Shown piece by piece: positions 2,732 through 6,521 of a DNA stretch of 10,385 bases. The DNA comes from Thermoproteota archaeon. Lineage in GTDB: Archaea; Korarchaeota; Korarchaeia; B14-G2. The stretch is from NCBI GenBank assembly GCA_003661385.1, contig QMWA01000049.1, positions 1 to 10,385 of the forward strand, written 5' to 3'. Position 1 is the first letter of the stretch; each line of letters begins with the position of its first letter. Under the pieces are notes generated by a model, which saw nothing but the letters and a program-made list of their open reading frames with translations, did no database searches and had not been told where the DNA came from. The position numbers and the translations under genes are program-made.

Positions 2732-3526
2732 TTGACGCACCCCCTAGACCCATACCTGAGGCCTGAGACTCTGCCTACACCATTCTGCCCTGGATGCGGC
2801 TGCGGCATCGTGGCTTCAGCGTTCCTGAGAGCTGCCAGAGAGCTAGGGCACAGCGACCTCTCTGGGTTCGTGTTCGTCAGCGGGATAGGCTGCTCCTCTT
2901 GGATCCCCTCACCGCACTTCAAGGCTGACAGCATACACATACTCCACGGGCGCTCAATCCCGACAGCGATGGGTGTGAAGGCTGTCAGGCCAGAGCTTGA
3001 GGTTGTGGTCTTCGGTGGAGACGGGGACCTAGCTAGCATAGGCTTAGGCCACCTGGTTCACGCTGCGAGACGCAACTTGGAGGTCCTCGTGATAATGGTC
3101 AACAACATGGTGTATGGGATGACTGGAGGCCAGCTTGCGCCAACAACCCCCAGAGGGGCTGTCACAGCTACATCACCCTATGGGAACCCAGAGAGCCCAA
3201 TAGACATGGTCAGGACGCTTGCTGCAGCTGGAGCAAGCTACGTAGCTAGGGGATGCGTGGCCTACCCAAGGCACCTAGAGAAGCTCATGCTAGAAGCCCT
3301 GCAGGCTAGCGGCTTCAGGTTCGTTGAAGCAGTCTCCACGTGCACAACACACTTCCAGCTCATGCTAGGCACCAAGAGCCCAGTTGAGGCCTTGAAGAAG
3401 CTGAGGGAGCTTGTGGAGTTCAGGGATGTGATGCAGGGGCCTAGGGAAGGCAGGCTCCCCCTGGGATCCTGGAGGCCTCCAGGTAGGAGGCCTGGCTTCG
3501 TAGAGAGCTTGAGGGGCCTGAGATGA
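2732..3526 (+). CDS. korB: 2-oxoacid:ferredoxin oxidoreductase, beta subunit (KorB-like)
   Basis: The beta subunit of these enzymes binds thiamine pyrophosphate and the [4Fe-4S] cluster that passes electrons from the 2-oxoacid to ferredoxin, giving an acyl-CoA and CO2. The 264 residues show the cluster-type cysteines C19 and C22 (FCPGCGCG), C54 (GIGCSS) and C204 (STCTTHF), matching the four-cysteine pattern of the family. The TPP/Mg motif GGDGD is at 95-99, followed by the NNMVYGMTGGQ loop and PTTPRG. The YGMTGGQ wording is most typical of 2-oxoglutarate-type (Kor) enzymes, but substrate choice is not proved by it. The start is a TTG: the frame has a stop at 2711-2713, and no ATG or GTG lies between that stop and the TTG. 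It is the first gene of the operon, and its stop overlaps the gamma start by ATGA. Confidence 0.92.
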   Translation: MTHPLDPYLRPETLPTPFCPGCGCGIVASAFLRAARELGHSDLSGFVFVSGIGCSSWIPSPHFKADSIHILHGRSIPTAMGVKAVRPELEVVVFGGDGDLASIGLGHLVHAARRNLEVLVIMVNNMVYGMTGGQLAPTTPRGAVTATSPYGNPESPIDMVRTLAAAGASYVARGCVAYPRHLEKLMLEALQASGFRFVEAVSTCTTHFQLMLGTKSPVEALKKLRELVEFRDVMQGPREGRLPLGSWRPPGRRPGFVESLRGLR

Positions 3527-4020
3527 GGCTTGAGATAAAGGCTGTTGGAGTGGGAGGGCAGGGTATACAGTTCCTTGGGCGTGTCCTGGCGCACGCCGCT
3601 GTCCTAGAGGGATTACACGCCACCTTCACAGGGTCCTATGGGGCTGAAGTCAGGGGGACACCCTCCTGGGCTGATGTCGTGGTCTCCACAGAGCCAGTCA
3701 CATACCCCTTCTGTGAGAAGCCCACCATCATCATATGCATGTTTCCGCCTCTGCTCAAGGGCATGGAGGCTGAGAGGGTTTATGTGAACTCACAGAAACC
3801 TATACCTGGAGCCATCACGGTGGATGCTGAGGGTGCTGCAGAGAGGGTAGCTGGGAGGAGGGTCTTAGGCAACATGGTGATGGCTGCATTTGTGTCAGCT
3901 AGGGAGAGGATAGCTTCACTAGGTTCCCTTAAGGAGGCGGTGAGAGAGGAGAGGTTCCCTCTCCCTGAGCTCAACTTTAAGGCCCTAGAGGAGGGGTGGA
4001 GGCTCGCTGAGGTGGCTTAG
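3523..4020 (+). CDS. korC: 2-oxoacid:ferredoxin oxidoreductase, gamma subunit (KorC-like)
   Basis: This 165-residue protein is the gamma subunit that packs against alpha and beta and helps form the CoA site. The N-terminal GVGGQG (residues 9-14) and the signature SYGAEVRGTPS (38-48) are characteristic of the family, followed by the usual region around VDAEGAAERVAGRRVLGNMVMAA. The length is normal for a stand-alone gamma subunit; in many aerobic crenarchaea gamma is instead fused to alpha, so the separate gene points to the four- or three-subunit anaerobic layout. The ATG overlaps the beta stop (ATGA), which implies coupled translation, and the stop is directly followed by the TTG of the hydroxymethyltransferase gene. 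Confidence 0.92.
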   Translation: MRLEIKAVGVGGQGIQFLGRVLAHAAVLEGLHATFTGSYGAEVRGTPSWADVVVSTEPVTYPFCEKPTIIICMFPPLLKGMEAERVYVNSQKPIPGAITVDAEGAAERVAGRRVLGNMVMAAFVSARERIASLGSLKEAVREERFPLPELNFKALEEGWRLAEVA

Positions 4021-5241
4021 TTGGGTGGAGTTAGGGCAGCTAGCCTGCTGAAGCAGGCTTTAGACAGGCATGAGGAGCTGAGGTCAAGGTCCCTAAGCCT
4101 AATTCCATCAGAGAATGTGATGAGCCCTGAGGCTAGGAGGCTGCTTTCAGCAGACTTAGCTCACAGGTACACCAGCTTGAAGCCCCGCCCGCTACACGGG
4201 CAGCCTGTAGAGGACTACTACATGGGAACCAGGTGGTCTAGAGAGGTCATTAGGGTATGTGAGGATGCAGCTAGAAGCCTCTTCAAATGCGGCTACGCTG
4301 ATGTCTCGCTTATCTCAGGGCACATAGCAGACCTAGCCATGGTGGCAGGCGTCTGCAAGCATGGCGATAAGATTGCTGTAGTAGAGCCCTTGAGCGGAGG
4401 CTACCCAGGCTTCCAGAGGGAGAAGATCCCCTCCCTGCTAGGCGTGGATGTGGTTTACCTCCCTACCAAAAGCTATACTCCAGTAGCTGAGGAGGCTGCT
4501 AGCATAGTGAGGAGGGAGAAGCCGAAGCTCGTGGTCTTAGGTGGCTCAATCATACTGTTCCCCCATCCAGTCAGGGAGCTAGCTGAGGCATGCAGCGAGG
4601 TTGGAGCAGTTCTAGCATATGATGGCTCACATGTGCTTGGGCTGATAGCTGGAGGAGAGTTCCAGCTCCCCCTAGATGAGGGAGCTCACCTGCTGGCTGG
4701 AAGCACCCACAAGACTCTCCCAGGCCCGCAGGGCGGCATCCTGCTTGCGTCAAGCCGCGAGCTAGGAGAGCAGGTGTCTGAGCACATACCCCATAAGCTG
4801 GTAGACAACCCCCACCTCCACAGGATAGCTGCCCTAGCCTACACCCTAGCTGAGATGCTAGAGTACTCCAAGAGCTACGCTAGGCAGGTTGTCTCGAATG
4901 CGAGAGCTCTAGCTAGAGCACTTGACGAGAGCGGTGTGCCAGTGCTGTTCAGGGAGCTAGGGTACACCTGCAGCCACCAGGTGAAGCTTGAGGTCACGGA
5001 AGACTACCTGGAGAAGGCTAAGCGCCTCGAGCAGGCACACCTGATAATAGACCTTGGAGGGAGGCTCGGCACACAGGAGCTAACCCGCAGAGGCATGAAG
5101 GAGAAGGAGATGGAGAAGGTAGCTGAGCTCTTCTCAAGAGTCTGGCGCGGAGAGCCGCCTGAGAAGGTCAGGAGGGAGGTCATGGAGCTCTCAGCTGAGT
5201 TCAGCAAGGTCTACTACAGCCTTGAGGAGGGCTTGCCATGA
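4021..5241 (+). CDS. glyA: archaeal-type serine hydroxymethyltransferase
   Basis: This PLP enzyme interconverts serine and glycine, moving a one-carbon unit to or from a pterin cofactor (tetrahydrofolate or tetrahydromethanopterin type; which one is not visible). It has 406 residues, normal for the family. The PLP lysine is K231 in GSTHKTLPGPQGG. D201 and H204 in AYDGSH match the pyridine-binding Asp and its stacking partner region, and R348 in GGRLGTQELTRRGM matches the carboxylate-binding Arg. SLIPSENVMSPE near the N-terminus is the expected substrate loop. GTQE and FPHPV are wordings I associate with archaeal members. Where bacterial enzymes have the catalytic Glu (GGCEYVD), this protein reads YYMGTRWSREV. 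The TTG start directly follows the gamma stop, with GAGGTGG 5 nt upstream inside the gamma gene. Its position inside an oxidoreductase operon is unusual. Confidence 0.9.
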   Translation: MGGVRAASLLKQALDRHEELRSRSLSLIPSENVMSPEARRLLSADLAHRYTSLKPRPLHGQPVEDYYMGTRWSREVIRVCEDAARSLFKCGYADVSLISGHIADLAMVAGVCKHGDKIAVVEPLSGGYPGFQREKIPSLLGVDVVYLPTKSYTPVAEEAASIVRREKPKLVVLGGSIILFPHPVRELAEACSEVGAVLAYDGSHVLGLIAGGEFQLPLDEGAHLLAGSTHKTLPGPQGGILLASSRELGEQVSEHIPHKLVDNPHLHRIAALAYTLAEMLEYSKSYARQVVSNARALARALDESGVPVLFRELGYTCSHQVKLEVTEDYLEKAKRLEQAHLIIDLGGRLGTQELTRRGMKEKEMEKVAELFSRVWRGEPPEKVRREVMELSAEFSKVYYSLEEGLP

Positions 5242-5251
5242 GGTGAGCTTG

Positions 5252-6376
5252 TTGAAGCCGAGGTTCATGCAGGGGAATGAAGCCTGCGCCGAGGGCGCCA
5301 TACTAGCAGGCTGCAAGTTCTTCGCAGGCTACCCCATAACCCCGCAGTCTGAGATAATGAGGTACATGGCTGAGAAGCTCCCTAAGCTAGGAGGCGTGTA
5401 CATCCAGGCTGAAGACGAGATAGCTGCAATATGCTCTGTGATAGGCGCATCCTGGGCTGGAGCCAAGGCTATGACAGCAACAAGCGGTCCAGGGTTCAGC
5501 CTCATGCAAGAAGCTCTGAGCTATGCTGTCATGACAGAGACCCCCCTCGTCGTGGTGGATGTCCAGAGGCTTGGGCCATCTACAGGCCAAGCCACTAAGT
5601 GCGGGCAAGGAGACATAATGCAGTCCAGGTGGGGGAGGCATGGAGACCAGACTCTAGTAGTCCTAGCCCCATACTCACCACAGGAGATGCTAGAGCTCAC
5701 AGCCAGGGCGTTCAGCATAGCATGCAAGCTGAGGACACCTGTCATAGTCCTCTCAGATGAGACTGTAGCCCACATGAGAGAGGAAGTCTACATCCCAGAG
5801 GGCCTTGAAGCACCTGAGCCCCCTAGGCCTAAGCCAGGTGAAGCAGAGTTCTTCGGGTCAAGGGAGCCAGCTGGAGTCCCTCCGATGCCTAGGGTTGGGG
5901 ACGGGTTTAATGTCATGGTGACTGGGTCAACACACGACAGCAGAGGCTACAGGAAGACTGCTGACCCACAGGTACACAGGAGGCTGGTCACCAGGATAGT
6001 GGCGAAGATAGAGTCTAGGGAGCCAGAGCTCCGTGACATAGACTACTATGGTGTAGAGAGCCCTGAGCTCCTGCTTGTAGCAGTAGGCTCAGCAGCTAGG
6101 TCAGTGAAGGAAGCTGTGAGAAGGCTTCTGTCTAGGGGGGTGAGGGCAGCTTTGTTCAGGCCTAGAACCCTCTTCCCATTCCCAGCTAGCACTCTGTCGC
6201 AGCTAGCTGAGGAAGCTAAGGCAGTGCTGGTGGTAGAGCTGAACCTAGGCCAGCTCATAGAAGAGGTCAGGAAGCACATTAAGCCACCATGCAGGGTAGA
6301 GGGCCTCAACAAGATAGGTGGGGGAGAGCCCATAGCTCCATCAGAGGTAGAGAAGGCAGCTGCCAGGCTGCTTTAG
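5252..6376 (+). CDS. korA: 2-oxoacid:ferredoxin oxidoreductase, alpha subunit (KorA-like)
   Basis: The alpha subunit completes the TPP site and recognises the 2-oxoacid. Near the N-terminus it shows FMQGNEACAEGA, then AGYPITPQSEI. The TPP-facing stretch TATSGPGFSLMQEALSYA and then GPSTGQATKCGQGD follow. Domain II has LLLVAVGSAARSVKEAV and FRPRTLFPFP. The length, about 374 residues, is normal for KorA. The frame is open from a TTG at 5222 inside the preceding gene, and a GTG at 5243 is also possible. I chose the TTG at 5252 because GAGGTGA (5240-5246) sits 5 nt before it and the protein then begins MKPRFMQGNEA, as in relatives. It is the last gene of the operon, and its stop lies 1 nt from the 3' end of the opposing tRNA gene. 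The conserved Thr of PITP is present, so the subunit looks active. Confidence 0.92.
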   Translation: MKPRFMQGNEACAEGAILAGCKFFAGYPITPQSEIMRYMAEKLPKLGGVYIQAEDEIAAICSVIGASWAGAKAMTATSGPGFSLMQEALSYAVMTETPLVVVDVQRLGPSTGQATKCGQGDIMQSRWGRHGDQTLVVLAPYSPQEMLELTARAFSIACKLRTPVIVLSDETVAHMREEVYIPEGLEAPEPPRPKPGEAEFFGSREPAGVPPMPRVGDGFNVMVTGSTHDSRGYRKTADPQVHRRLVTRIVAKIESREPELRDIDYYGVESPELLLVAVGSAARSVKEAVRRLLSRGVRAALFRPRTLFPFPASTLSQLAEEAKAVLVVELNLGQLIEEVRKHIKPPCRVEGLNKIGGGEPIAPSEVEKAAARLL

Positions 6377-6391
6377 GTGGGGGCGAGGGGA

Positions 6392-6404
6392 GTTCCAGGA
6401 GCCT
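6392..6404 (-). other. tRNA intron in the T loop (59/60), 13 nt
   Basis: On the minus strand the intron AGGCTCCTGGAAC interrupts the T loop after TTCAAG and before T, i.e. between positions 59 and 60. The T stem GGGGG/CCCCT forms the outer helix, exon TTCA pairs with intron TGGA (4 bp with one T-G), and the bulges are AGA and ACT, 3 nt each. Cutting after the second base of each bulge restores TTCAAGT. A shift of 1-3 nt would also give a 7-nt loop, but only this frame gives both a full central helix and symmetrical bulges. Confidence 0.82.
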
Positions 6405-6447
6405 CTTGAACCCCCGACCGTCGGGTCTGGAGCCCGCCGCTCTACCA

Positions 6448-6465
6448 CACCAGGGATCCGAGCCT
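6448..6465 (-). other. tRNA intron in the D loop, 18 nt
   Basis: On the minus strand the intron AGGCTCGGATCCCTGGTG lies between AGCA and TGGTA of the D loop. A bulge-helix-bulge can be drawn: exon TCAG pairs with intron CTGG (4 bp with one T-G), with 3-nt bulges CAA and TGT on opposite strands. Cutting after the second base of each bulge gives exactly the standard D loop AGCATGGTA. An inner GG/CC pair closes a 7-nt loop. The outer helix is weak, so it is a relaxed motif. Confidence 0.8.
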
Positions 6466-6509
6466 TGCTGAGCTACGCCCCCACCTAGCATACCAGCAGC
6501 CTTCATCAT

Positions 6510-6515
6510 TTTAAA
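6510..6515 (-). promoter_or_regulatory. TATA box of tRNA-Trp
   Basis: TTTAAA, flanked by AAAAG on its upstream side (minus strand) as a possible BRE, lies 28-33 nt before the tRNA 5' end. This is the typical archaeal distance, giving a start a few bases ahead of the mature tRNA. It is the most A/T-rich spot of the surrounding region. Confidence 0.75.
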
Positions 6516-6521
6516 CTTTTA

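Follow-up and report, generated by a model that had tools for sequence, protein, structure and literature searches.

Transfer RNA genes with more than one intron have been recorded in the Korarchaeota (PMC4033280), and the multi-intron tRNAs of Korarchaeum cryptofilum, the Thermoproteales, Thermofilum and Caldiarchaeum carry noncanonical bulge-helix-bulge (BHB) introns, two per tRNA. The site between nucleotides 59 and 60 is among the listed noncanonical intron positions (PMC4090602). In the Korarchaeota such introns occur together with an alpha2 splicing endonuclease (EndA) that has a specific loop (PMC4033280), and the lysine of the EndA loop is required for broad specificity (PMC6379350, PMC12397907). 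In the tRNA-Trp of Haloferax and Pyrococcus, a box C/D guide is nested in the anticodon-loop intron, and C34 is a methylated position of the Haloferax tRNA (PMC11408192, PMC7994747). The gene described here, a tRNA-Trp that likewise has two noncanonical BHB introns, adds another case to an archaeal branch in which twice-interrupted tRNA genes are already known, although the kinship table places its lineage apart from the known multi-intron systems at the family level. A tRNA-Trp with introns at 17/17a and 59/60 and no intron at 37/38 was not found in the literature searched.

The window, that is, the whole 10,385-nucleotide stretch of contig QMWA01000049.1 analysed here, belongs to an assembly of 206 contigs and 1.74 Mb that is 91% complete. 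An archaeal 16S model found no match in this assembly, homologues of KOR alpha gave no guide to its affiliation, the best being 58% identical and mixed (Bathyarchaeota, Thermoprotei), and the kinship table assigns the genome to the Korarchaeota, in the same class as the Korarchaeum family (f2). It stands alone in its own family, its classmates being that one large family and a singleton (f3, G021). The placement agrees with the sequence-only reading, which had named deep archaeal lineages among the sources of multi-intron tRNAs. The gene lies on the minus strand and reads from 6482 to 6378 as a 105-nt precursor, GGGGGCGTAGCTCAGCA[AGGCTCGGATCCCTGGTG]TGGTAGAGCGGCGGGCTCCAGACCCGACGGTCGGGGGTTCAAG[AGGCTCCTGGAAC]TCCCCTCGCCCCCA, where brackets enclose the two insertions; their loss leaves a mature tRNA-Trp(CCA) of 74 nt. 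Its features are as follows.

6378..6482, minus strand: tRNA-Trp(CCA) gene, from the splice-and-score search and ARAGORN on the spliced form, with G1-C72, A73 and anticodon CCA
6466..6482, minus strand: exon 1, acceptor 5' strand, D-stem 5' strand and D-loop nucleotides 14-17
6448..6465, minus strand: intron 1, 18 nt, in the D loop between nucleotides 17 and 17a, AGGCTCGGATCCCTGGTG
6405..6447, minus strand: exon 2, remaining D arm, anticodon arm, variable loop, T-stem 5' strand and T-loop nucleotides 54-59
6392..6404, minus strand: intron 2, 13 nt, in the T loop between nucleotides 59 and 60, AGGCTCCTGGAAC
6378..6391, minus strand: exon 3, nucleotides 60-73
6510..6520, minus strand: candidate TATA-like archaeal element AAAAGTTTAAA, by sequence inspection

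Once spliced, the tRNA carries T8, A14, G18G19, TTC, A58, A73 and a cloverleaf with the CCA anticodon, which lies at 6428-6430 on the minus strand in an uninterrupted anticodon arm; the intron common elsewhere in this loop had indeed been read as absent. The acceptor (7/7), D (4/4) and T (5/5, one G-U) stems are fully paired, and the anticodon stem has 4/5 pairs, with a G27-A43 mismatch at a position where most relatives have G-U. The CCA end is absent from the gene sequence, CCT following directly on the 3' side. Upstream, TTTAAA occupies -33 to -28 relative to the tRNA 5' end, and comparable AT-rich boxes lie ahead of several further tRNA genes in the genome. Genes for subunits of a 2-oxoacid:ferredoxin oxidoreductase occupy 2732-6376 of the window. 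Between its gamma-like and alpha subunits lies a gene resembling serine hydroxymethyltransferase (4021-5241), and the alpha gene runs tail to tail with the tRNA gene, stopping 1 nt short of the tRNA 3' end.

Both introns had been proposed from the sequence-only reading, and their positions, like the tRNA-Trp identity and the BHB geometry, held up in every respect that was checked. We removed every combination of BHB-compatible introns and scored the resulting tRNA by a scheme of our own, and the pair 17/17a and 59/60 came out on top with 76 against 65 for the runner-up. Removal of AGGCTCGGATCCCTGGTG (6465-6448) restores the D-loop sequence AGCATGGTA and removal of AGGCTCCTGGAAC (6404-6392) restores TTCAAGT, both exactly as predicted, and given these target sequences the 18 nt and the 13 nt can each be removed in a single register only. 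ARAGORN reports the unspliced gene as a truncated Trp (6387-6459), makes no call when the D intron alone is removed, gives a false tRNA-Thr when the T intron alone is removed, and calls a full tRNA-Trp(CCA) on the doubly spliced 74-mer.

With the BHB motif defined as in PMC4090602, each site has a 4-bp central helix and two 3-nt bulges, with the cut after the second nucleotide of each bulge. The central helices, TCAG (6468-6471) with CTGG (6450-6453) at the D site and TTCA (6407-6410) with TGGA (6394-6397) at the T site, have 4/4 pairs with one G-U each. Shuffled introns reach 4/4 pairing at these cuts in 2.5% of cases at the D site and 1.4% at the T site, or jointly about 3e-4. The outer and inner helices fall short of the strict hBHBh' form, with 1 outer and 2 inner bp at the D site and 5 outer and 1 inner bp at the T site, and as judged from pairing these are relaxed BHBs, of a kind accepted by broad-specificity EndA enzymes (PMC6379350). 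ViennaRNA predicts other folds for the isolated arms, at -13.5 versus -6.8 kcal/mol for the BHB in the T arm and -5.2 versus -0.6 kcal/mol in the D arm; the T-arm gap is 6.7 kcal/mol, where the remaining 59/60 introns of the genome show 0 to 4.1. This predicted preference, clearest in the T arm, is a real weakness of the splicing interpretation, although EndA reads the BHB and cells are not tied to a predicted minimum fold.

Intron-aware parsing of the tRNA candidates suggests introns in about two dozen genes of this genome, some parses being approximate. By the same partly approximate parsing, two introns each are present in Trp, Met, Ala-TGC, Phe, Pro-GGG, Ser-CGA, Thr-TGT and Arg-CCT. T-loop introns of 12-14 nt at 59/60 are found in five further tRNAs: in Met, Ala-TGC, Phe and Asn (read by eye), with 4/4 central pairs in the same register as in Trp, and in Thr-GGT, with 3/4. 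The heavily interrupted loci (L012, L014, L006, L026, L253 and others) include some that ARAGORN misses or misnames. Parts of the Trp introns recur elsewhere, at L014 and L253: AGGCTCGGAT is common to the Trp D-loop intron and the Met anticodon-loop intron, and AGGCTCCTG to the Trp T-loop intron and the D-loop intron of a tRNA on C2. Sharing on this scale has a joint shuffle P of about 0.001 and a single best P of about 0.014, for a set that has loosely parsed introns and a statistic picked after the match was seen, and the shared sequences are only suggestive of intron transposition between tRNAs.

These recurrent 59/60 introns also bear on whether just one insertion is spliced, the other being kept as an enlarged loop. 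Left unspliced, the T arm can fold as one uninterrupted hairpin, GGGGGUUC/GAACUCCC, which would suit such an arrangement, but neither singly spliced form is accepted as tRNA-Trp by ARAGORN. Intact D and T loops are required for the tertiary folding of tRNA, and a kept insertion would disrupt one of them. We regard splicing of a single intron as highly improbable.

The D-loop site is shared with relatives. All 20 tRNA-Trp genes read in the Korarchaeum family have an interrupted D arm and a second intron after the anticodon; in the 12 parsed base by base (12/12) the D-loop intron lies at 17/17a as in the window gene, and the remaining eight show the same layout without an individual parse. The two lineages have in common this intron position, the CCA anticodon and near-identical BHB helix bases, the central helix in the parsed Korarchaeum-family genes being mostly CCAG/CTGG, with a compensated CTAG/CTAG in G020. 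They differ in the introns themselves. The Korarchaeum-family D-loop intron has 34-39 nt and an RTGAT motif, whereas that of the window has 18 nt and no motif; the family also has an anticodon-loop intron of 20-47 nt with a guide and a D-like box, which is absent from the window gene. Conversely, a T-loop intron like that of the window gene was seen neither in the Korarchaeum family nor in any other tRNA-Trp gene read among relatives. In G021, from the third family of the class, and G026, from an outgroup class, tRNA-Trp has an anticodon-loop intron only. The comparison suggests that the 17/17a site was probably inherited from a common ancestor of the window lineage and the Korarchaeum family; the intron may have been gained once, or it may have been lost in G021.

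A plain tRNA search had been expected to miss or truncate this gene, and both outcomes were seen: ARAGORN truncates it, and the 28 tRNAs reported across the genome with Rfam RF00005 do not include it. An Rfam cmscan of the window gave sub-threshold tmRNA and SNORA70 matches, which we dismissed as chance or as resemblance to a tRNA acceptor and T arm. A second intact tRNA-Trp, named beforehand as the observation that would suggest a dead copy, was not found when a tRNA-Trp covariance model was run over the whole 91% complete assembly. The window gene scored 74.5 bits, a value inflated by its membership in the training set of the model, and the next match, at 37.9 bits, was rejected as tRNA-Trp as it parses as Pro-GGG. 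The window locus is probably a functional tRNA-Trp gene and the only one of the genome.

The alternative, a dead or decaying copy with two small insertions whose working counterpart belongs to the ~9% of the genome absent from the assembly, would account for the G27-A43 mismatch and for a T-arm BHB that is not the predicted minimum-energy fold, and an incomplete assembly in 206 contigs leaves room for it. Against this, splicing leaves every other stem intact and restores the consensus loops exactly, and both insertions fall at BHB-compatible sites, the one in the D loop conserved in relatives. Many other tRNAs of the genome have similar insertions, and the assembly holds no second tRNA-Trp that the search could find. 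We consider a dead copy very unlikely.

The window genome encodes a single EndA, a 367-aa open reading frame that spans two endonuclease domains. Its C-terminal half can be aligned to the alpha subunit of Aeropyrum pernix (3p1z_B, E 2.8e-32): the catalytic Tyr, His and Lys are retained, and in the crenarchaea-specific loop KPK stands opposite K44-P45-R46 of Aeropyrum, in line with a K-P-[KR] pattern. The N-terminal half matches the Nanoarchaeum equitans subunit NEQ261. Among the other genomes of the phylum, the three with a match (G001, G026 and G028) show this fused layout as well. As far as the korarchaeal alpha2-type enzyme is described where Fujishima 2011 is cited in PMC4033280, it has the same single open reading frame, two domains and KPK loop, the enzyme of the window genome being described here at the sequence level. 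A fused EndA with a crenarchaeal-type loop agrees with the published association of such an enzyme and noncanonical introns in Korarchaeota, and with the role of the loop lysine in broad specificity.

A frameshift close to a contig end interrupts the open reading frame for the ligase RtcB (L264 / L265, G000:C181); it may be either an assembly error or real. Coming from another contig of a fragmented assembly, it hints at local errors and hence at the idea that the tRNA insertions themselves are sequencing or assembly errors. Insertions of 18 and 13 nt placed precisely at BHB sites are untypical of errors, however, and D-loop introns occupy the same site in independent genomes, so that this explanation is almost certainly wrong.

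We therefore think it very likely that this is a functional, probably sole, tRNA-Trp gene of a Korarchaeota-related archaeon, from which two introns are spliced out at relaxed BHBs. The two-intron interpretation is favoured by the optimum of the splice-and-score search together with the acceptance by ARAGORN of the fully spliced form only, and further by the 4/4 helices at both joins, the conserved D site, the recurrent 59/60 introns, the EndA and the TATA-like element. It is weakened by the non-BHB minihelix folds, G27-A43, a T-loop intron peculiar to this tRNA-Trp among the relatives, the incomplete genome, from which another tRNA-Trp could be missing, and the rtcB frameshift. In the mechanism that we infer, the precursor would be transcribed from the TATA-like box and fold into relaxed BHBs at the D-loop (17/17a) and T-loop (59/60) sites. 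The fused beta-alpha EndA has the crenarchaeal-type loop, a feature known to allow noncanonical sites; it would cut both BHBs, whichever is cleaved first, and RtcB would presumably join the exons into a normal 74-nt tRNA-Trp that would function as such. The T-loop intron would be one of the recurrent local 59/60 set, possibly spread by intron transposition.

The introns of the Korarchaeum relatives appear to have a role that those of the window gene lack. The D-loop intron of that family holds a C-box-like RTGAT, and the anticodon intron has (T)GGAGC, separated by a single base from a D-like box (CTGA, ATGA, TTGA or TCGA); the guide base reached by counting back five from that box stands opposite C34. 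The seven nucleotides that precede the C-like box, set off from it by one base, pair with the seven that follow the D-like box. Over 13 distinct genes, 90% of the cells of this inter-intron stem are paired and four pairs have changed on both sides. Its covariation score is 0.264, against 0.164 in shuffles (1/500 as high), and is lower at every slid register, for a set of related sequences aligned by anchoring on the two boxes, with two of the seven pairs invariant. The kink-turn is not a textbook one, as the first base of box D varies and the C box is without its usual sixth G. Loci with these motifs are L171, L163, L165, L167, L168, L172, L173, L178, L185-L193, L195, L197 and L206. Taken together, the motifs and pairing point to a probable box C/D guide for C34 split over two introns of one pre-tRNA. 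The Korarchaeum relatives would thus resemble Haloferax and Pyrococcus in that introns appear to guide C34 methylation, but differ from them in having the C and D boxes in two different introns. Guides published in the literature searched are nested within one tRNA-Trp intron, and no report of a guide split over two introns was found in a search covering few subscription papers. In the outgroup genome G026, the single anticodon-loop intron of tRNA-Trp (L292) has CTGGTGC-G-ATGA and a nearby GATGATT, motifs similar to those of a C'/D' guide for C34 contained in a single intron.

The window gene, although the same isoacceptor as in Haloferax and Pyrococcus, has neither an anticodon intron nor a C/D motif, there being no TGAT or TGA box in either of its introns. 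A search of its genome for a stand-alone C34 guide with the pattern GGAGCNCTGA, covering the flanks of 30 of the 43 sites, gave no convincing candidate; two GGAGCNCTGA sites with an upstream C-like motif were considered as C34 guides and were both unconvincing. The window D-loop intron could be a reduced counterpart of a half-guide intron, the Korarchaeum introns forming one kink-turn guide (C box in the D-loop intron, D box and C34 guide in the anticodon-loop intron) and the window lineage having no such device, a joint reading for and against which we see the balance as even.

The window gene is an example of an essential single-copy tRNA gene that plain tRNA searches overlook or misinterpret, and it connects noncanonical introns with a fused korarchaeal EndA with the specific loop in a lineage of many intron-bearing tRNAs. 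The probable split guide of the Korarchaeum family is the more unusual result, the window gene keeping only its intron site. If the joint reading is true, both Korarchaeum introns must remain in place until C34 is methylated, and the window lineage methylates C34 by a separate guide or not at all. Set side by side, the window gene and its Korarchaeum relatives offer a testable case for the purpose of an odd tRNA intron.
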